Positions 1-58,317 of a stretch of DNA of 64,000 nucleotides are shown one piece after another; the first letter of the stretch is position 1, and each line of letters begins with the position of its first letter. The notes under the pieces were generated by a model. The model did not search any database and was not told where the DNA came from. It was given only the letters and a program-made list of their open reading frames with translations. This DNA comes from Roseibaca calidilacus (GTDB taxonomy: Bacteria > Pseudomonadota > Alphaproteobacteria > Rhodobacterales > Rhodobacteraceae), in the NCBI RefSeq assembly GCF_001517585.1, contig NZ_FBYC01000004.1, positions 744,001-808,000 of the forward strand, given 5' to 3'. The position numbers and the translations under genes are program-made.

Positions 1-1644
1 GGCGATCAGGTCATTGTCGTTGATCGCCTTCGAGATTTCCTCTTGCAGCGGGCCGGAATTGCCGATGCAGGTGGTGCAGCCATAGCCCACAAGGTTGAAG
101 CCGATGGCGTCCAGATCGTCTTGCAGATCGGCGGCTTCCAGATAGGCAGAGACGACCTGAGAGCCGGGCGCGAGCGAGGTTTTGACCCAAGGCTTGCGGG
201 TCAGACCCAGCGCGCGGGCTTTGCGCGCGACCAGACCGGCCCCGATCATCACATAGGGGTTCGAGGTGTTGGTGCAGGACGTGATCGACGCGATCACGAC
301 AGAGCCGTCGCGCAGGGTGTAATCCTCTCCGGTCACGGTGGCGGATTTACGCGGGTCGGCAGGCGCAGTGGGCGCGGGGCCTTCATCTGCCATTTCGGCG
401 GCCTCGGTCGTGGCAGCCACACCGCGATACTCCGACACCACGTCCAGAAACTTTGCGGCCGCTTGGTCCAGCGGGGTATGGTCCTGCGGGCGCTTGGGGC
501 CGGAAATGGCAGGCACCACGCTGCCCATGTCCAATTCCAACGTGCTGGTATAGACCGGCGCGTAATCGGCACCGCGCCAGAAGCCGTTTTCGCGTGCATA
601 GGCTTCGACCAGCGCCACGCGGTCCTCGTCGCGGCCGGTCTGGCGCAGGTAGCGCAGGGTTTCATCGTCAATCGGGAAGAAGCCACAGGTCGCGCCGTAT
701 TCTGGGGCCATGTTGGCAATGGTGGCGCGGTCCGCCAGCGGCAAGTTGTCCAGCCCCGGACCGTAGAATTCGACGAATTTGCCCACAACGCCGTGCGCGC
801 GCAGCATCTGCACCACTTTCAGCACCAAGTCGGTGGCGGTGGTGCCTTCGACCATGGCACCCGTCAGCTTGAAGCCCACAACTTCGGGAATCAGCATCGA
901 CACAGGCTGGCCCAGCATTGCGGCTTCAGCCTCGATCCCGCCAACACCCCAGCCCAGTACGGCCAGACCATTGACCATGGTGGTGTGGCTGTCGGTGCCC
1001 ACCAGCGTGTCGGGATAGGCCACTTCAGCGCCGGTCTGGTCGGTATCGGTCCAGACGGTTTGCGCCAGATATTCAAGGTTTACCTGATGGCAGATGCCGG
1101 TGCCCGGCGGCACCACGCGGAAATTGTTGAACGCCTTCTGGCCCCATTTCAGGAAGGTGTAGCGCTCGATATTGCGCTCATATTCGCGGTCCACGTTCAT
1201 CTGGAAGGCGCGCGGGTTGCCGAATTCGTCGATCATCACCGAATGGTCGATGACCAGATCGACCGGGTTCAGCGGGTTGATCTTTTGCGCATCGCCGCCC
1301 AAGGCTTTGATGCCGTCACGCATGGCGGCCAAGTCAACCACGGCGGGCACGCCGGTGAAATCCTGCATCAGCACGCGGGCAGGGCGGTAGGCAATCTCGC
1401 GCGGGTTCTTGCCGCCTTGTGTGGCCCAATCGGCAAAGGCGCGGATGTCGTCGGTCGTGACCGTCTTGCCGTCCTCGAACCGCAGCATGTTTTCCAGCAC
1501 CACTTTCAGCGCGGCGGGCAGCTTGGCGAAATCGCCCAAGCCTGCGGCCTGCGCGGCGGGGATGGAGTAATAGGCAATGCTCTTGCCTGCGACGGTCAAT
1601 GTCTTGCGCGCACCCGCGCTGTCGTGGCCGACTGTAATGGTCAT
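1..1644 (-). CDS. acnA: Aconitate hydratase (partial, 3' end outside window)
   Basis: TCA-cycle enzyme that interconverts citrate and isocitrate through a [4Fe-4S] cluster. The minus-strand frame opens at 1644 with [16 protein letters not shown] and stays open to the window edge, giving about 548 residues of an expected ~900. Family hallmarks are visible: the [20 protein letters not shown] segment, the cluster cysteine in [11 protein letters not shown], and the C-terminal [11 protein letters not shown] segment with further cluster cysteines. The swivelling C-terminal domain lies outside the window. A 245-bp divergent spacer separates it from the DUF1223 gene and should carry its promoter. A long open frame on the plus strand (43-1911) is only its shadow. 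Confidence 0.96.
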
Positions 1645-1889
1645 TTGGCTGAGCCTTCTGCTAAATTGGGTGACAGGGGTCTTGGCCCCTTGCATTTGCC
1701 ATTGCTCGCCGTATCGATCAAGGGCTATTGCGCATTTTTGTATACCGTTGTGCACAATTTTGCGGTTTTCCTGCGGTGTCGCCCGCGCTGTGGCCAATGT
1801 GCAGCGTGCAGGCACTTCTCGCAAAACCTTGATTGGCCCTTGTGCAAGGGGGTGGTTAGATCGCAACGCACCAACAGAACGGAAAGCCC

Positions 1890-2612
1890 ATGCGCCAGCA
1901 CTCTGCCTTAGCATTTGCCCTTTGCGCGCTGATCGGATCTGCCGGTCCGCTATGGGCGCAGCAAAACCCGGTTGTGGTCGAACTCTATACCTCGCAAGGC
2001 TGTGCGGCCTGCCCGCCGGCCGATGAACTGCTCAACCAGATGGCGGATCATGACGCTATTTTGCCATTGGCGCTGCATGTCGATTACTGGGACTATATTG
2101 GCTGGGCCGACACTTTTGGCAAAACGGCGTTCAGCGAGCGGCAAAAAGCCTATGCCCGCGAGATGGGGCGCAAATCCGTCTACACCCCGCAAATGGTCAT
2201 TGGCGGCGTGGATGACGTGCAGGGCAATGCCACGATGCAGGTCATGGCGCAAATCGCCGAACACCGCATGAACCCGGTCGGCGGCGGGCGGGTGTCCGTT
2301 CAGATCACGGCCCGCGACGGCGGCGGTGTGACGATCACTGCGCAATCTCCGTTGGGGTTGGACCATGCGGTCGATGTTCAGCTTGTCCGCTTTCTGAACG
2401 AGGCGACTGTCGAGATTCTGGCCGGAGAGAATGAGGGCCGTTTCCTGACCTATCGCAACATCGTGACCGATTGGAACATGCTGGGCGCGTGGGACGGGTT
2501 GGAGCCCTTCAACCATACCGTGACAGAGAATCTGCCCCAAGGCTCCGGGATGGCCGTTCTGGTGCAAGAGCAAGGTCAGGGGCCGGTCCTTGGGGCCGCG
2601 CGCTATCCCTGA
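1890..2612 (+). CDS. DUF1223 thioredoxin-fold exported protein
   Basis: A 240-residue protein with an N-terminal signal peptide ([24 protein letters not shown]). The mature part begins [21 protein letters not shown], the DUF1223 signature with a CxxC pair in a thioredoxin-like fold, so it is probably a periplasmic or secreted protein of redox character. The family has no firmly established reaction. The start at 1890 lies shortly behind a purine-rich ACGGAAAG stretch. It is divergent from acnA and stands alone, with the iorAB pair starting 79 bp downstream on the same strand. The DUF assignment rests on the conserved N-terminal motif. Confidence 0.85.
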
Positions 2613-2691
2613 CGGGCTGACGCAAGGTGTGCCTTGGCAGAGCGGTGCGCGCACCCCATATTGACGGGGAACAGCGCAAGGAACCGCCGCT

Positions 2692-3150
2692 ATGTCGATT
2701 ACCCTGACCGTGAACGCCGCCGAAATCCAGACAGATGCCGCGCCGGACACCCCGCTTTTATGGGTGCTGCGCGACGAGTTGGGACTGACCGGTACCAAGT
2801 TTGGGTGCGGTATTGCCGCTTGCGGGGCCTGCACCGTGCATGTCGCGGGCCAAGCCGTGCGGTCGTGCCAAGTGGCGGTGGGCGATCTGTGGGGTCCGGT
2901 CACGACCATTGAAGGGCTTGGCGGCCAGACGCCCCTGCAAGCGGCGTGGGAACGTCACCAAGTCGCGCAATGCGGCTATTGCCAGTCCGGCCAGATCATG
3001 CAGGCGGCGGATCTGCTGGCCAATAATCCTGCGCCCACCGATGCCGATATTGACGCCGCCATGAGCGGCAACCTGTGCCGCTGCGGCACCTATACCGCCC
3101 TGCGCGCGGCCATCCATGATGCGGCGCGCGCGATGGGGTCAGACCAATGA
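2692..3150 (+). CDS. iorA: Isoquinoline 1-oxidoreductase-type (2Fe-2S) subunit
   Basis: Small iron-sulfur subunit (152 aa) of a xanthine-oxidase-family molybdenum hydroxylase. It should pass electrons from the molybdopterin subunit encoded next door. The N-terminal ferredoxin-like domain has the [14 protein letters not shown] cluster motif, and the C-terminal helical domain has [10 protein letters not shown] and NLCRCGTY, the second [2Fe-2S] site. Length fits the family. AAGGAACC precedes the ATG. The stop overlaps the next gene's start as ATGA (3147-3150), so the two are translationally coupled. The real substrate (N-heterocycle or aldehyde) cannot be read from sequence. Confidence 0.9.
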
Positions 3151-5378
3151 GCACCTTGGGCAAGATCACGCGGCGCGGGCTTTTGCTGGGTGCGGTCGCG
3201 GTGGCGGGCGGCGCGGCATTTGGCGTCTATCACATTCGCAAACCGGTCGAAAACCCGCTGGCCCCCGATCAGGGCGCCACGTTGAACCCCTATGTCATCA
3301 TTGACCAGACGGGTGTGACCATCATCGCGCCGCGCGCCGAAATGGGGCAGGGCGTGCACACCACCCTTGCCGCGCTTGTAGCCGAAGAACTGGACGTGGA
3401 TTTCGCGTCCATCCGGGTCGAGCATGGCCCGCCCTCTGCCGCTTATTACAACGGCGCGCTGATGCATGGTGCGCTGCCCGTTGCCGATTACGCCATGAAG
3501 GATTGGCAACATAGCGTGGTCGGCGGGCTTGGCGCAGTCAGCAAGCTGCTGGGGTTGCAGGTGACGGGTGGGTCCACCTCGACCGTCGATGCCTATGAGA
3601 AGATGCGGCTGGCCGGTGCTGGCGCGCGCGAGGCGCTGAAGGCGGTCGTAGCCGACCGTCTGGGGGTGAACAGAGCGGAGTTGCGCACCGAAGACGGGGC
3701 TGTCATCGCCCCCGACGACAGACGTATTCCCTATGCCGATTTGGCGGAAGAGGCCGCCGCGCGCCCGGTGCCCGATGTAACCTTGCGCCCGCAATCAGAG
3801 TGGAAATTGCTGGGTCGTGCTTTGCCGCGCCCCGATATGCGCGCCAAGATCACGGGCAAAGCGCAATATGCAACCGATATCCAACTGCCGGGGATGAAAT
3901 TCGCCACCGTCCGCATCTGCCCGCATCTGGGCGGCGGCATGGCGGGGTTTGATCCCGCGCCTGCGCTGGCCATGCCCGGCGTTGAACAGGTGATCGACAT
4001 GGGCAATGGCGTGGCCGTGGTCGCGCGCAACACATGGGCCGCGCTGGAAGGGGCGCGGGCGGTGGATATCACATGGACAGACTCGCCTCTGCCTGCCGAT
4101 ATGGACGGCATGTTCGCCGCTATAGAGGCCGCGTTCGACACAGAACCAAATTCCACCCTGCGCGATGAGGGTGACGCGACCACCTTGCCAGACGGCGCGA
4201 TCAGCGCCGAGTATCGCGTGCCCTTCCTTGCCCATTCCACGATGGAACCCCAAGGCGCAACGGCATGGTTGCAAGACGGGCGCATGACCCTTTGGGCTGG
4301 CAACCAAGCGCCGCGCCTCTGCGTGCAAAAGGCGGCTGAAGCGTCTGGGCTGGCCGAGGATGCGATCACCCTGCACACGACCTTTATGGGGGGCGGGTTC
4401 GGGCGGCGCGCGGAAACCGATGCGGTCGCCCAAGTCGCCCGCATTGCCGCCGCCATGCCCGGCACGCCCATTCGCCTGACATGGTCGCGCGAGGAAGATA
4501 TGGGGCATGATTTCTACCGCCCCGCCGCCATAGCGCGGATGCAAGGCGCGCTAGATCAGGGCCGCATCAGCCATTTCAACGCCGCGATTGCCGCGCCATC
4601 CGTCACCCGCGCCGCCATGACGCGGATCATGGGCCGCGCGCCCGGCGGGGCCGATAAGGGGCATGTCGAAGGCGCGTTCGACCAGCCCTATGCGATCCCG
4701 AATTACCGCGTGGCGGGGCATCTGGCCGATCTGGACGTGCCCATCGGCTTCTGGCGGTCGGTGGGCGCGTCTTTCAACGGGTTCTTTCATGAAAGCTTTG
4801 TCGATGAATTGGCCCATGCTGCCAGGGCCGACCCGCTGGCGTTTCGGCTGGCGCATGTCGCGCCCGAAAGCCCGGTTGCCGCAGGCGTGCTGACCCGCGT
4901 GCGCGAGATGTCGGGCTGGGACACGCCCCTGCCCGAAGGCCGCGCGCGCGGCGTGGCGATGACATGGTCTTTCGGCACGCCCACGGCGGTGGTGATCGAA
5001 CTGGCGCAGGATGGCGAGCGCATCCGCATGGACCGTGCCTTCATGGCCTGTGATCCGGGGCTGGTGCTGGACCCCGGCATTGTGCGCGCGCAGATGGAAT
5101 CGGGGCTGATCTACGGGCTATCGGCGGCGGTGATGGGCAAGATCACCTTCGCGGGTGGCGCAGTCGAGCAAGCCAATTTCCCCGATTATGACGCCTTGCG
5201 CATGGTCAACACGCCGCGCATCGAGGTCGCGATCCTGCAAGACAACCCGCATATGGGCGGTGTGGGGGAACCCGGCACACCGCCCGCCATGCCCGCGCTC
5301 GCCAATGCGCTGTTTGCCCTGACAGGCACACGCGCGCGCAGCCTGCCCCTGCGCGATGTGGCGGATTTCGGGGTTTAG
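3147..5378 (+). CDS. iorB: Molybdopterin-binding subunit of IorB-type oxidoreductase
   Basis: Large catalytic subunit (743 aa) of the molybdenum hydroxylase paired with the preceding [2Fe-2S] protein. The N-terminus [20 protein letters not shown] is a twin-arginine-type signal, so the enzyme is probably exported folded or anchored on the periplasmic face. Family motifs seen include [35 protein letters not shown] and a C-terminal [18 protein letters not shown] carrying the conserved active-site glutamate region. No third (cytochrome c) subunit and no XdhC/MocA-type maturation gene lie nearby, so the final electron acceptor and cofactor insertion must be encoded elsewhere. Many such proteins are called aldehyde dehydrogenases; the substrate is unknown. 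Confidence 0.88.
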
Positions 5379-5585
5379 GATTGGTTCACGCGGGGCAGTG
5401 GCCAAGGCCGCTCAAACCAGTTCTTTGAAAATCTGATGTCAGAAACTCTTGGCATAACTTTCTTAAGCTATGTCAGGTTTCTGGCAACTGATAAGAGCGC
5501 GCCTTCCTGCGTCGTGCCGCATCTGTCGCTTTGGGTTCCTCTCAGCCTCTCGGCGCGGTGCGATCCCGAATGTTGAAGGCGTGCG

Positions 5586-6782
5586 TCACCGCGTTGCAAC
5601 CAGCACGGCCACCGGCCCGGCATAGAGCGCCAAACTACCATCCGGCAGGTGCTTGATCCCGGTGGCAGCTTCCAGCGCGTCCAGAAAGCGGATTTCAAGA
5701 TTGGACTGGTTGGCCGGGCAGCTTAGACGCGTGGTGCCAAGGTCGGTGACCTGCAAACGGGTTTCGGCAATCGCGGCGCGGCCAAGGTAGCGGTTGCAGT
5801 TTGTCCGCCCCGAAAGCCGCCCGGCATTAACCTGAACCGAGAAATCCGTCATCCTTTCATCCGCGCGGGGCAGGGGCAGCCCATACAGATGCGTGACCTG
5901 CCAGACCGGCCCTTCCAGCGCATGCAGCGGGTTGCCCGCGCAGCCCGGTGGAAAACTGGCCCCCGGGGCCGAAAGCTGCGCGGTGAAGGGATAGGGCATG
6001 TCCAGCCCCGGAAGCTGGCAAGGGCGGTGTTCTACCCGCAGGGTCTGGCGTCCGATTCTGAATGCATACACGTCATCGGCGGTTCGGGTGATCTTGGTCG
6101 GGGCAAGCTCTGGCACGGGATCGGCCGGCGGCTCTGGCGTGGTCAGAACCATGGACCCGGCGACTTCTGTGTGCACTTTCCAGCTTGCATCCGGCCCCAG
6201 TGCCGTCAGCGGCAGGATGGGGCGTGCGGGAATGGCTTGGCAGCTGTCGATCAGCGTGCCTTCGGCGGTTTCCAGTTGCAGCAGGCCGGGCGCGCGGTTC
6301 AGGACCGTCCCGTCGGGGGCGGTAAACCTCCCTTCCAGCGCCGCGGGGCTGAAGCGTTGGCCCTCTAACCGGACCGCGTCGCCATCGGGGAAAAGCGCGA
6401 TCACCTGCCCCGAATTGCACAGATACGCGTCAGAGAAACTTGCGCTCAGCGCCGCGTTTAGCTGCATCTGTTCGGGCGCTTGCCCGCCTTCGACGGGGGC
6501 GCGCGCGCTTTGCAACGCAAAAGCATCATCCACCAACGCGCCGACCTGCACTGTGCTGGCTTGGCGAGACAGGCTTGGCAGGGGCAGCACCGCGTTGCGC
6601 GTGTCGGCGGGCAGGGTCAGGCGTTGGGTGTCCAGAACAGCGCCTGCCGTGTCACGGGTGACGGCGACAATCTCTGTTGCCGGGGCTGTATCGGTCGGCC
6701 AGTCAAGCGTCAGGGCCACGTCACGCGCCTGCACGCCCTGTGCAAGGGCTGTGATTGCGCAGGATATGGCAATGACACGCAT
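5586..6782 (-). CDS. Exported META-domain protein with YbaY-like N-terminal part
   Basis: A 398-residue protein starting MRVIAISCAITALAQGVQA, a signal peptide. Residues ~20-105 resemble a YbaY/lipoprotein beta-sandwich (VALTLDWPTDTAPATEIVAVTRD). The last ~115 residues look like a META/HslJ domain (WQVTHLYGLPL, then GRTNCNRYLG and RLSCPANQSNLEIRFLDALE). No enzymatic residues are evident; META-domain proteins are cell-envelope proteins linked in some bacteria to stress or antibiotic tolerance. It begins 34 bp after the efp stop and is probably cotranscribed with it. An open frame continues upstream of the chosen start, but the signal peptide fixes the ATG. A shorter relative sits at 18244-19185. 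Confidence 0.75.
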   Translation of the reverse strand: MRVIAISCAITALAQGVQARDVALTLDWPTDTAPATEIVAVTRDTAGAVLDTQRLTLPADTRNAVLPLPSLSRQASTVQVGALVDDAFALQSARAPVEGGQAPEQMQLNAALSASFSDAYLCNSGQVIALFPDGDAVRLEGQRFSPAALEGRFTAPDGTVLNRAPGLLQLETAEGTLIDSCQAIPARPILPLTALGPDASWKVHTEVAGSMVLTTPEPPADPVPELAPTKITRTADDVYAFRIGRQTLRVEHRPCQLPGLDMPYPFTAQLSAPGASFPPGCAGNPLHALEGPVWQVTHLYGLPLPRADERMTDFSVQVNAGRLSGRTNCNRYLGRAAIAETRLQVTDLGTTRLSCPANQSNLEIRFLDALEAATGIKHLPDGSLALYAGPVAVLVATR

Positions 6783-55971: not shown

Positions 55972-56883
55972 TCAGGCGACGGGTTCGGGCTGCGGTACAT
56001 CCCGTCCCGGCTTTGCCCTCTTGCGCGACAGGGCCTGCGACCTCTTGGCGGCAATGGCGGTCAGGCCGGGGCGCGCGCTGCGCGCGATCCGGCGGGTGAG
56101 GGCGCGCAGATATTCCGGGTCATGCCGCCGCGCGCGCAGCAGGCGTGCGGCTTTCGGCGCGGTCAAGGCGCCGGTCGCGGCCAGTTCGATCAGCGGGGCC
56201 AGCAAGCCCATGCGGGCAAGGCTGTCTTGGGTCGGACCATACAGGCGCGGGCTGCGCAGAAGGGTGACAAAGGGTCGGCGGAACAAGGCTGCATGCATGG
56301 CATCTGCCCGCAGCGACGGGTCATAGAGCACGAAAGCGTTGCGGCTGCCGTCCAGCATGTCGGGCGCAAACCCGAAGCGCGTGCGGAAGTCCAGCCGCCG
56401 CGCCCATATGAATCGCCGGTCCCATGGGGCGATTGCCGGGTCAAGCGTGGCTTGTGGCGCAATCGCCAGAACCGTCGCGCCGGGCGCGGTCAGGCTAAAC
56501 GCACAGGCTGCGTAACCGCCCATGCCCGCACCGTAGAACAGCACGCGCTTGAAGCTGTCGAAGAAACCTTCGTCAATCTGGGCATCGAAGAAATCCAGCA
56601 CTTCGGTATCCCGAAACCAGCGCGGCGCGCGTGCGATTAGGCCCAGATGCGACCAGCCATTCGCCTCTGCCACTAACAGGCCAAGCGGTTTGTGTTCGGG
56701 GCCGGTGGCGCGACACTCGGCCACCGTCTCGAAGCTGACGATCAGCGTGTCGCCACCATCGGCGTAGAATGCCGCATGTTGGCTGCCCAGAGGCGAGAAC
56801 GCGCCTAGCTCATCGCCCAGCTCGTCCAGTCGTGCCAGCCATTCGGCGTCGGTGCGCGCGGTCGAAAGATCAATACTGGTCAT
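55972..56883 (-). CDS. Alpha/beta-hydrolase-fold protein lacking the nucleophile serine
   Basis: A 303-residue cytosolic protein. The core VLFYGAGMGGYAACAFSLTAPGATVLAIAPQATL looks like an alpha/beta-hydrolase nucleophile elbow, but GxSxG reads GAGMG with Gly120 in place of Ser. Upstream are LIVSFETV and a strand-helix pattern; the C-terminal ~70 residues are Arg/Ala-rich. I recall similar Rhodobacterales proteins being called phosphoadenosine phosphosulfate reductase, but no PAPS-reductase motif is visible. Function unknown; it may bind rather than hydrolyse. Confidence 0.7.
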   Translation of the reverse strand: MTSIDLSTARTDAEWLARLDELGDELGAFSPLGSQHAAFYADGGDTLIVSFETVAECRATGPEHKPLGLLVAEANGWSHLGLIARAPRWFRDTEVLDFFDAQIDEGFFDSFKRVLFYGAGMGGYAACAFSLTAPGATVLAIAPQATLDPAIAPWDRRFIWARRLDFRTRFGFAPDMLDGSRNAFVLYDPSLRADAMHAALFRRPFVTLLRSPRLYGPTQDSLARMGLLAPLIELAATGALTAPKAARLLRARRHDPEYLRALTRRIARSARPGLTAIAAKRSQALSRKRAKPGRDVPQPEPVA

Positions 56884-57046
56884 GGCGGTCCTGCCCGGTC
56901 AAAATCTGTCTACAGGCTACAGAGCCGGTCGGGCGCTGGCAAATATCGTATGGCAAAGGCGCGGCGAATTTTTGTCAAAATCATGGCAACCGAAAAGCGA
57001 TTGTTCGCGGTTCTGTGCCAGTCCCGTGCAACAGGTTGGATTGTTT

Positions 57047-57067
57047 GTGAACAAGCACCGTGTTCAC
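57047..57067. promoter_or_regulatory. Inverted repeat, possible operator
   Basis: GTGAACA and TGTTCAC are perfect 7-bp inverted arms around a 7-bp spacer, ending 19 bp upstream of the FNR box. It could bind a second dimeric regulator at the same promoter. No regulator can be named. Confidence 0.4.
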
Positions 57068-57086
57068 CATGATGCGCGCCAATTTT

Positions 57087-57100
57087 TTGATTCAGATCAA
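57087..57100. promoter_or_regulatory. Perfect FNR/FnrL box
   Basis: TTGATTCAGATCAA matches the FNR consensus TTGAT-N4-ATCAA at all ten fixed positions. Its centre (57093.5) lies ~41 bp upstream of a start expected near 57134, given the TGATTATAC -10-like element at 57117-57125. That is the classic class II activation spacing for transcription rightward, toward the hairpins at 57171-57217. Confidence 0.75.
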
Positions 57101-57133
57101 GGAACGCCCGACGCAATGATTATACCCAGATAC

Positions 57134-57222
57134 ATGTTTATGGCGCTGCCAGAAACATTTTCCTCCCTGTCCCGCCGACACGCGGGTGACTGACCCGCCC
57201 TTATTGCAAGGGCGGGTTTTTT
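57134..57222 (+). ncRNA. Candidate FNR-controlled small RNA (~89 nt)
   Basis: The predicted transcript runs from about 57134 to the terminator T-run. A 5' single-stranded part includes TTTTCCTCCCT (CCTCCC at 57162-57167, complementary to Shine-Dalgarno cores). It is followed by hairpin 1 (CCCGC 57171-57175 with GCGGG 57182-57186, 6-nt loop) and the terminator hairpin. Rhodobacter has a known FnrL-dependent small RNA (PcrZ), and CCUCC-loop small RNAs are known there; whether this is a homologue cannot be told here. The alternative is a leaderless 19-codon frame (57134-57193, MFMALPETFSSLSRRHAGD). Confidence 0.55.
57193..57222 (+). terminator. Strong intrinsic terminator of the candidate small RNA
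   Basis: A perfect 10-bp stem, ACCCGCCCTT (57193-57202) with AAGGGCGGGT (57208-57217), a 5-nt loop, and TTTTTT ending at 57222. No annotated plus-strand gene lies upstream that it could serve; the divergent gene at 56883 reads the other way. Confidence 0.9.
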
Positions 57223-57315
57223 CGCGCGCCCTGTGCGCAAAGCCGAAAACAGTGACGGCTTGCCGTGCGCTCAGTTGCGCGGCATAGTCGCGCCATAATC
57301 GAAACCAGAGGCATA

Positions 57316-58317
57316 ATGTCCTATCCACCCAGCCCCAAATCTGACTTGCTGCGCAAATGGATCGCGCCGCTTATGGCCTGTGTGCTGGTTTGGCTGGCGC
57401 CGCTTGCCGTGCAGGCACAATCGGCCGGTGCGGCGCGTGATGCCGCCATCGCGGCTTGGCTGGCGGATGACGAATTGGCAGGGCTGCGTGGCTTGGCCGA
57501 GCTTGCGCAGGCGGGTGACGCGCCCGCGCAAACCCTGCTGGGGTTGATTGACCGTCACGCGGCATTGCAAGGCCCGGCGGTGCTGGCCTTGCCCCGGGCA
57601 GATCGGATTGCGCTGTTGCGCGCGCCCGGCGGGCTATCAGGGCGCAACTGGCTGGCAGAGGCCGCGGCGCAAGGCGATGAGCTGGCCCGTGCATGGCATG
57701 CTTTGGGTGGGGTTGCGGCTGATCTGGACGTTGCCGCGCAATTCGCTGCGCTGAACGAACCGCGCGCGTTGGCGCAGGCGCTGCTGACCGTAGCCAAGCG
57801 GCAAGAACGGGGCTTTGGGCGCGATATTTTGGCGCAAGACTGGTATCCGGAAACCTTGGCATTCCTGTCGCGCAACCGGACGCTGGCCCCCGAACAGGCC
57901 GAAAAGCTTCATCCGGGCGATCCGCAGCGCCGCTACATGGATGGGCAGGTGCCGCCCAAACCCGCCTTGCAAGACTGGCTGTCGACCGCGCCTGCTGCCC
58001 TTCATCTGCGCGCGGCCTGCGCGGCGGTTTGCCCGTCCGAAGCCGGTCAGTGCGTGCTGGCCCTGTATCATGCGCTTGGCAATTACGAGGCGTTGCTGGC
58101 GCATGGCAGCCCGGCGAACAGCCTTGTTCCCGACGCGGTGCTGGCCGACAGCCCGCGCGGGCGCGCGGCGCTTGGGCGGCGGATCATGCTGATGCGATCG
58201 ACCCGGATGCGCGAAGCGGAACGCCTGAAATTGTCAGAGATCAGCGCCTGCGCCGCCGATTGGCTGGCAGCGCAATTCGTCTCGCACACGCCGCGGAGGA
58301 TACCAAAAGCGGAATAG
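57316..58317 (+). CDS. Exported Ala-rich helical protein of unknown function
   Basis: A 333-residue protein beginning MSYPPSPKSDLLRKWIAPLMACVLVWLAPLAVQAQ, a long signal peptide. The mature part is Ala/Leu-rich and helical, with AAWLADDELAGLRGLAELAQAGDAPAQTLLGL and WLAEAAAQGDELARAWHALGG, which look like loose Sel1/TPR-type helix pairs. Four cysteines occur in the C-terminal half (AACAAVCPSEAGQCVLALY and ISACAADW). No family is recognised. AGAGG lies just ahead of the ATG at 57316; an in-frame upstream start (57265) is less likely. Confidence 0.72.
   Translation: MSYPPSPKSDLLRKWIAPLMACVLVWLAPLAVQAQSAGAARDAAIAAWLADDELAGLRGLAELAQAGDAPAQTLLGLIDRHAALQGPAVLALPRADRIALLRAPGGLSGRNWLAEAAAQGDELARAWHALGGVAADLDVAAQFAALNEPRALAQALLTVAKRQERGFGRDILAQDWYPETLAFLSRNRTLAPEQAEKLHPGDPQRRYMDGQVPPKPALQDWLSTAPAALHLRAACAAVCPSEAGQCVLALYHALGNYEALLAHGSPANSLVPDAVLADSPRGRAALGRRIMLMRSTRMREAERLKLSEISACAADWLAAQFVSHTPRRIPKAE

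Follow-up and report, generated by a model that had tools for sequence, protein, structure and literature searches.

The small RNA (sRNA) SorX of Rhodobacter sphaeroides, originally listed as RSs2461, is described as a 3' UTR-derived stress sRNA that is cleaved from the RSP_0847 mRNA and transcribed under RpoHI/II (PMC3320616, PMC9438474, PMC8307010), and its placement under alternative sigma factors is given in PMC8307010. Its known target, according to PMC9438474, is a polyamine uptake gene, and an FnrL ChIP-seq peak has been reported at its promoter (PMC4263372, PMC5036791). PcrZ of the same species is a low-oxygen sRNA of 136 nt (PMC6238624) whose level is FnrL-dependent; its promoter is described as carrying a PrrA consensus site, and the FnrL control may be indirect (PMC8139620). 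In E. coli, the sRNA FnrS is described as being under direct FNR control (PMC4263372).

Here we analyzed a locus in a 64-kb window (the whole stretch of DNA under study, G000:C4:744001-808000, from a genome of 3.35 Mb; window positions are used throughout), which probably harbors a stand-alone gene (57134-57222) for an FNR-induced anti-Shine-Dalgarno sRNA that would repress uptake genes at low oxygen. The source bacterium belongs to a soda-lake genus, represented by records named Roseinatronobacter, Roseibaca, and Natronohydrobacter. The RNA encoded in the window (hereafter, the window RNA) is apparently not SorX but a new sRNA family of the Roseinatronobacter group, to which it would add an apparently undescribed RNA with a clear likely inducer, FNR. 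Our searches of an open-licence library found no account linking FNR, an anti-Shine-Dalgarno sRNA, and solute-binding proteins in Rhodobacteraceae.

Promoter region and predicted fold

The putative gene lies in a 432-bp gap (56884-57315) that separates two flanking reading frames; as the initial annotation of this DNA had claimed, the gap contains no convincing gene, and merely spurious short frames were listed there. An FNR box without any mismatch, TTGATTCAGATCAA, occupies 57087-57100 on the forward strand at a class II position, and this claim was likewise borne out. It is the sole FNR-box match in the 64 kb, even with one mismatch tolerated, a one-mismatch count that is itself unremarkable given the 1.36 matches expected in shuffled sequences. 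A -10-like element, TGATTATAC (57117-57125, forward strand), which is a consensus match only and is absent from the promoter-scan listing, follows the box, and transcription is predicted to start at 57134-57135 (box centre at 57093.5 plus 41.5 nt), in line with the start near 57134, about 41 nt from the box centre, that had been proposed. A sigma-70 promoter scan listed nothing within 56880-57330; a good -35 element is often missing at class II activator sites, and class II FNR promoters have a distance of 40.5 to 42.5 nt between box centre and start. The box thus stands at the class II distance expected of an FNR-dependent sRNA, as measured to a predicted RNA start. Because of the box and its spacing, the RNA would be made at low oxygen, when an FNR-type regulator would bind 57087-57100 and recruit RNA polymerase in the class II manner; FNR activation of the window RNA is very probable on these grounds.

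The inverted repeat GTGAACA-N7-TGTTCAC (57047-57067; 7 bp, with arms at 57047-57053 and 57061-57067) does exist 5' of the FNR box, where the initial annotation had placed an extra repeat, but it was not seen in the window-RNA homologs whose sequences were inspected. In 1.2 Mb of the own genome, TTGAY-N4-RTCAA boxes occurred seven times, six of them in intergenic positions. One was located 53 bp before the gene of a 136-residue protein that by eye resembles universal stress proteins, and another preceded the gene of a di-haem cytochrome c peroxidase by 89 bp. A gene for an FNR-type regulator was not seen by a crude cysteine-pattern filter in the sampled 36% of the genome.

The predicted RNA of approximately 89 nt (57134-57222, forward strand), for which the fold and the homologs speak, had a folding energy of -37.2 kcal/mol (z = -4.38), and none of 200 shuffled sequences was equally stable. 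It is predicted to begin with a 5' hairpin, P1 (AUGUUU ... AAACAU, 57134-57158), a feature beyond the initial annotation, followed by the exposed core UUCCUCCCUGU (57160-57170), which would act as the anti-Shine-Dalgarno seed. A second hairpin, P2 (CCCGC/GCGGG, 57171-57186), and a terminator hairpin with a U-run (57192-57222) complete the fold. The unpaired CCTCCC (57162-57167), the 5-bp hairpin, and the 10-bp terminator with six T's, all of which had been pointed out before, were recovered in this fold, with the terminator stem (57192-57218) comprising 10 Watson-Crick pairs and an additional G-U pair. A terminator pattern scan missed 57192-57222, and its single match there was on the opposite strand. 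The exposed CCUCC segment that characterizes an anti-Shine-Dalgarno sRNA is thus suggested by the predicted fold, and the site enrichment presented below points the same way.

Conservation across the genus

A search across relatives, which the initial annotation had asked for, revealed homologs of the window RNA in 25 of the 37 genus genomes (20 in an alignment designated A1 and five others), with the layout retained. At the DNA level, a search with 57080-57225 against 100 relatives gave matches in 32 genomes at E values up to 0.1, and every match below E 0.003 belonged to the own genus. The 20 sequences of A1 were chosen by the core TTCCTCCCTGT, so that the invariance of the core in this alignment is partly a product of selection. 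A fairer conservation test starts at the neighbouring gene, which was present in 33 of the 37 genomes and through which 30 loci were fetched. The covariance model R1 matched 20 of these 30 syntenic loci (own window counted), 19 of them at 3e-10 or better and the remaining one (L048) at 1.4e-7; five of the matching genomes (L046, L048, L050, L057, and L060) had contributed no sequence to the model. When the same 30 loci were asked for the FNR box and CCTCCC alone, 18 responded, 14 of which were also in A1, and TTCCTCCCTGT was present in all 18. With filters off, the window RNA was missing from 10 of the 30 syntenic loci, one weak partial match aside.

Of the 25 genus genomes with the window RNA, 23 keep an FNR-like box. 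Among the 25 distinct sequences compared, one (L024, boxless and from another family) was dropped, and 23 of the remaining 24 homologs had an FNR-like box, in one case with one mismatch; L060 and L031 have the core and lack the box. In 19 of 23 homologs, 40.5-42.5 nt separated the box centre from the base at which pairing in the RNA begins, within a range of 18 nt covered by the script. P1 changes in sequence while its pairing persists: 23 of the 24 distinct homologs retain 6 bp or more, and several Watson-Crick types occur at helix positions 6-10. For P2, double changes were observed in one of the five pairs (2 of the 20 A1 sequences), and three pairs were broken in 2 to 4 of the 20 sequences, while the terminator was retained among the homologs despite sequence change. 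RNAalifold on A1 yielded nine pairs, three with double changes, in the P2 and terminator hairpins; P1 was not shown, probably because its loop length varies.

A scan for the box and the core in one genome per species (84,980 species) returned 19 records. The named ones were Natronohydrobacter, Roseinatronobacter thiooxidans and sp., Roseibaca ekhonensis, Roseibaca sp., and Roseibaca domitiana, of which NCBI now places ekhonensis and domitianus in Roseinatronobacter; the remaining records were MAGs labelled just Rhodobacteraceae or Alphaproteobacteria. A covariance search of the wider family returned two own-genus matches and two weak ones, and it is no proof of absence because, in the results shown, 10 candidates were scored per genome out of some 1200-5700. 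Both weak matches were rejected as homologs by eye, L064 being the antisense of a ribosome-binding site and L065 a third SorX-like type. Overall, the layout is more than chance since the homologs keep it, and the comparison across the genus argues for a real gene; the homologs, boxes, spacing, and hairpin strongly support the earlier proposal that this is the gene of an FNR-controlled sRNA exposing an anti-Shine-Dalgarno segment.

Candidate targets and genomic setting

The exposed segment, whose complement is ACAGGGAGGAAAAT, would pair with ribosome-binding sites that are rich in purines (ACAGGGAGGAA type). Targets were sought in 1.2 Mb (36%) of the genome, where a simple gene finder predicted 1041 genes (1040 usable); an energy-only ranking seemed to be ruled by G-U and GC noise and was abandoned, and exact complementarity was used instead. 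In the interval from -30 to +3, 19 genes had at least 8 complementary bases; flank-shuffled seeds with the same GGAGG averaged 9.6 genes, and 7 of 200 such seeds reached 19. Pfam searches of 18 of the 19 genes (the remaining one lay across two stretches) identified six solute-binding proteins (Peripla_BP_4, SBP_bac_1, DctP, Peripla_BP_6, Bmp, and SBP_bac_8), one permease, one ABC ATPase, and ten others.

To find more solute-binding proteins, 40 signal-peptide candidates were chosen by eye out of two lists (195 and 86 entries) and scanned. In the resulting list of 20 solute-binding proteins, whose compilation was not blind, six had sites of at least 8 nt, whereas among the 1020 other genes 13 did (Fisher 5e-7); if 60 or 80 solute-binding proteins are assumed in all, this value rises to 4e-4 or 0.002, respectively. 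The list excludes the lipoprotein 328915 (Peripla_BP_6), which we take to be a probable cell-wall factor, and includes gene 2259507, added by eye; gene 156761 was counted although its weak match sits upstream of the Shine-Dalgarno site. With shuffled flanks, the solute-binding set gave a mean of 0.70 and a maximum of 4, and 0 of 300 shuffles reached 6, whereas the other genes were not clearly enriched (13 vs. a mean of 8.8; 45 of 300 shuffles reached 13). In a control of 149 genes with a Shine-Dalgarno match of at least 4, from which genes with at least 7 complementary bases were left out, no solute-binding family was found among the 25 commonest of 252. Of the 23 orthologs with a start found (25 loci), 18 retained the best site at a length of at least 8 nt, as opposed to 2 of 14 (15 loci) for a second candidate site; conservation of GGGAGG alone says little because it is an ordinary Shine-Dalgarno sequence.

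The pairing of CCTCCC with ribosome-binding sites that the initial annotation had envisaged, and the target prediction it had recommended, thus gained statistical support for solute-binding-protein genes and not clearly for other genes, and the targets are not assignable to the window RNA alone because three SorX-like RNAs of the own genome share its seed. The evidence favours repression of uptake genes without singling out one of these four same-seed RNAs. We propose that pairing occurs chiefly at the ribosome-binding sites of solute-binding proteins belonging to ABC and TRAP uptake systems, whose translation it would block, a proposal that connects oxygen sensing with nutrient uptake in a testable way. 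Candidates of this class in the own genome are the genes at C4:2467951, 2156965, 2126928, 935245, and 2356357. It is rather unlikely, though worth weighing, that an FNR-controlled sRNA at this locus has another main role, either competing with SorX-like RNAs for shared targets or a shared chaperone, or regulating respiratory and oxidoreductase mRNAs. Among the 18 genes with long complementarity that were scanned, ten are not concerned with transport (cytochrome c, P450, a molybdopterin oxidoreductase, a molybdopterin-dehydrogenase FAD protein, and others), and redox enzymes would suit an FNR circuit, but the solute-binding proteins alone stood clearly above the flank-shuffled controls, the remaining 13 genes being equalled by 45 of the 300 shuffles.

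Two further sequence features were noted in the genome. The motif ACAGGGAGGGATCCCGATG is frequent in the genus (at least 20 of 37 genomes; own copy at C4:945965-945983, L107) and was set aside as a target, with no evident gene start behind it and no Rfam match; it is perhaps an unlisted structured RNA. Separately, a 408-residue frame, by eye probably a transposase, occurs in four copies with the same start and upstream DNA (C4:42766, 54846, 1063424, and 2174230).

The upstream flanking gene (55972-56883, reverse strand) encodes 303 aa, and the downstream one (57316-58317, forward strand) 333 aa from this start. Both flanking proteins occur in many genus genomes, yet neither has a Pfam match at 0.001. 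An ortholog of the upstream gene adjoins the window RNA in 20 of the 30 loci fetched via that gene. In the A1 loci, both neighbours were matched beside the RNA in 13 of 20 cases and one in 7, namely the downstream neighbour alone in L008, L012, and L013 and the upstream neighbour alone in L009, L016, L017, and L020, as judged within a 3-kb locus. The same-strand orientation of the downstream gene and the 13 loci with both neighbours could suggest that a neighbouring protein gene is what the FNR box controls and that the transcribed stretch is a leader or an attenuator instead of a free sRNA. We consider this improbable, given the strong predicted terminator between the RNA and the downstream gene, the seven loci in which just one neighbour was matched, and a box spacing that suits the RNA start and not the downstream gene.

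Relation to SorX and other known RNAs

Like SorX, the window RNA exposes CCUCCCUGU before a terminator. In SorX, this core is followed by UUGGACU, whereas the window RNA has a CCCGCC hairpin there and reads CCUCCCUGUCCCGCC, which departs from the SorX signature of CCUCCCUGU followed by UUGGA(CU). The SorX model (RF02784) had no match in the 64-kb window at the gathering score (46.6 bits) and none at E values up to 10 on 56900-57320 (421 bases). The setting also differs from that of SorX, as the window RNA is not located behind a same-strand gene; it lies by position in no 3' UTR, because the upstream neighbour lies on the opposite strand and is directed away from it, and therefore lacks the SorX-type position in the 3' UTR of an ompR-type mRNA. 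The own genome contains a canonical SorX (72.9 bits) and two SorX-like RNAs (44.6 and 33.8 bits; cut-off 46.6) at C4:2460946-2461022, 1732456-1732538, and 1271362-1271425 (L096, L097, and L098), all three of which carry CCUCCCUGU and none of which has an FNR box.

The window RNA shares with SorX the exposed CCUCCCUGU and the order of hairpin, core, and terminator, and its FNR promoter class is that of SorX in many other genera, but that it is a fast-diverged copy and a true member of the SorX family is very improbable: the SorX model remained blank on the 421 bases, UUGGACU is absent after the core, and the own genome already has its canonical SorX. Membership was rejected by the covariance model, and no intermediates between SorX and the window RNA were seen among the loci read. 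RSs2461, once considered as an equal of the window RNA, was discarded since it is SorX and hence a different RNA. Finally, the notion that the short protein MFMALPETFSSLSRRHAGD (57134-57193) is the conserved entity is hardly tenable, because, although 23 of 24 homologs have an ATG close to the predicted start, this ATG stands in different frames with respect to the core (13, 8, and 2 of 23) and the peptides vary in both length and sequence, with seven stopping after 2 to 10 residues, so the protein-coding reading of this 19-residue peptide was dismissed and the conserved translated frame that the initial annotation had named as a counter-indication was not found.

An FNR-controlled RNA carrying CCUCCCUGU is not peculiar to this genus. 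Among 394 family genomes (393 genera), 68 (67 genera) showed the pattern of an FNR box, 50-80 nt, and CCTCCCTGT, and the reversed-pattern control gave no match among those listed. CCTCCCTGTTGGA was present in 28 of 30 such loci read, and Rfam identified SorX in 12 of 12 such CCTCCCTGTTGGA loci submitted and matched no family in the window-RNA loci (0 of 3). SorX was present in 348 of the 394 family genomes, and an FNR box occurred 78-94 nt before the CCTCCCTGT core in 13 of the 29 best family SorX loci counted (30 were fetched, one without an exact core). The observations on boxed SorX concern the family loci L066, L068-L094, and L190-L215. They point to FNR boxes before SorX in many genera of the family, though SorX is described as RpoH-driven and 3' UTR-derived (PMC3320616, PMC9438474). 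Within the genus, the SorX model gave 85 matches at E values up to 1e-4, one to three in each of the 37 genomes, and 27 genomes had a match over the cut-off; a few weak matches among the 85 lack the exact core and may not be SorX. None of the 85 had an FNR box in the approximately 160 nt or more inspected before the core. Twelve of the 37 genus genomes showed no sign of the window RNA or of a boxed SorX. A second SorX type of the genus (e.g., L170, L172, L174, L177, and L178) has a conserved ATTTAACTTGCGTAATG approximately 70 nt before the core, which is perhaps another promoter or operator.

Because of these box counts, FNR control of an RNA with CCUCCCUGU appears to be common in the family and to rest on another RNA here. 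We tentatively suggest, as a possible though not the likelier course of events, that oxygen control of the shared CCUCCCUGU circuit changed its carrier, with boxed SorX serving in many Rhodobacteraceae genera and the window RNA in the Roseinatronobacter group; the wiring of FNR, CCUCCCUGU, and uptake would have been kept and the RNA replaced, that is, the window RNA may have taken the place of a boxed SorX in this genus. If true, a regulatory connection can outlive the RNA that carries it.

Regarding other known RNAs, Rfam gave no family at threshold for the window RNA. PcrZ is set apart by its description, including its greater length than the approximately 89 nt predicted here, and an FnrS-type family was not listed by the Rfam search at the gathering score or at E values up to 10. 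For anti-hemB (RF02837), which Rfam calls a Burkholderia RNA, UCCUCCCUG and the terminator aligned with the window RNA at 25.1 bits, below the gathering score of 49.5. GcvB and AbcR repress many mRNAs of uptake solute-binding proteins at ribosome-binding sites; their inducers differ from the one proposed for the window RNA, and the likeness is one of the way of working. The anti-Shine-Dalgarno type of action is already known. SorX is the nearest known RNA in its way of working, and the window RNA would work in the manner of SorX and of GcvB or AbcR as a separate RNA under FNR control.
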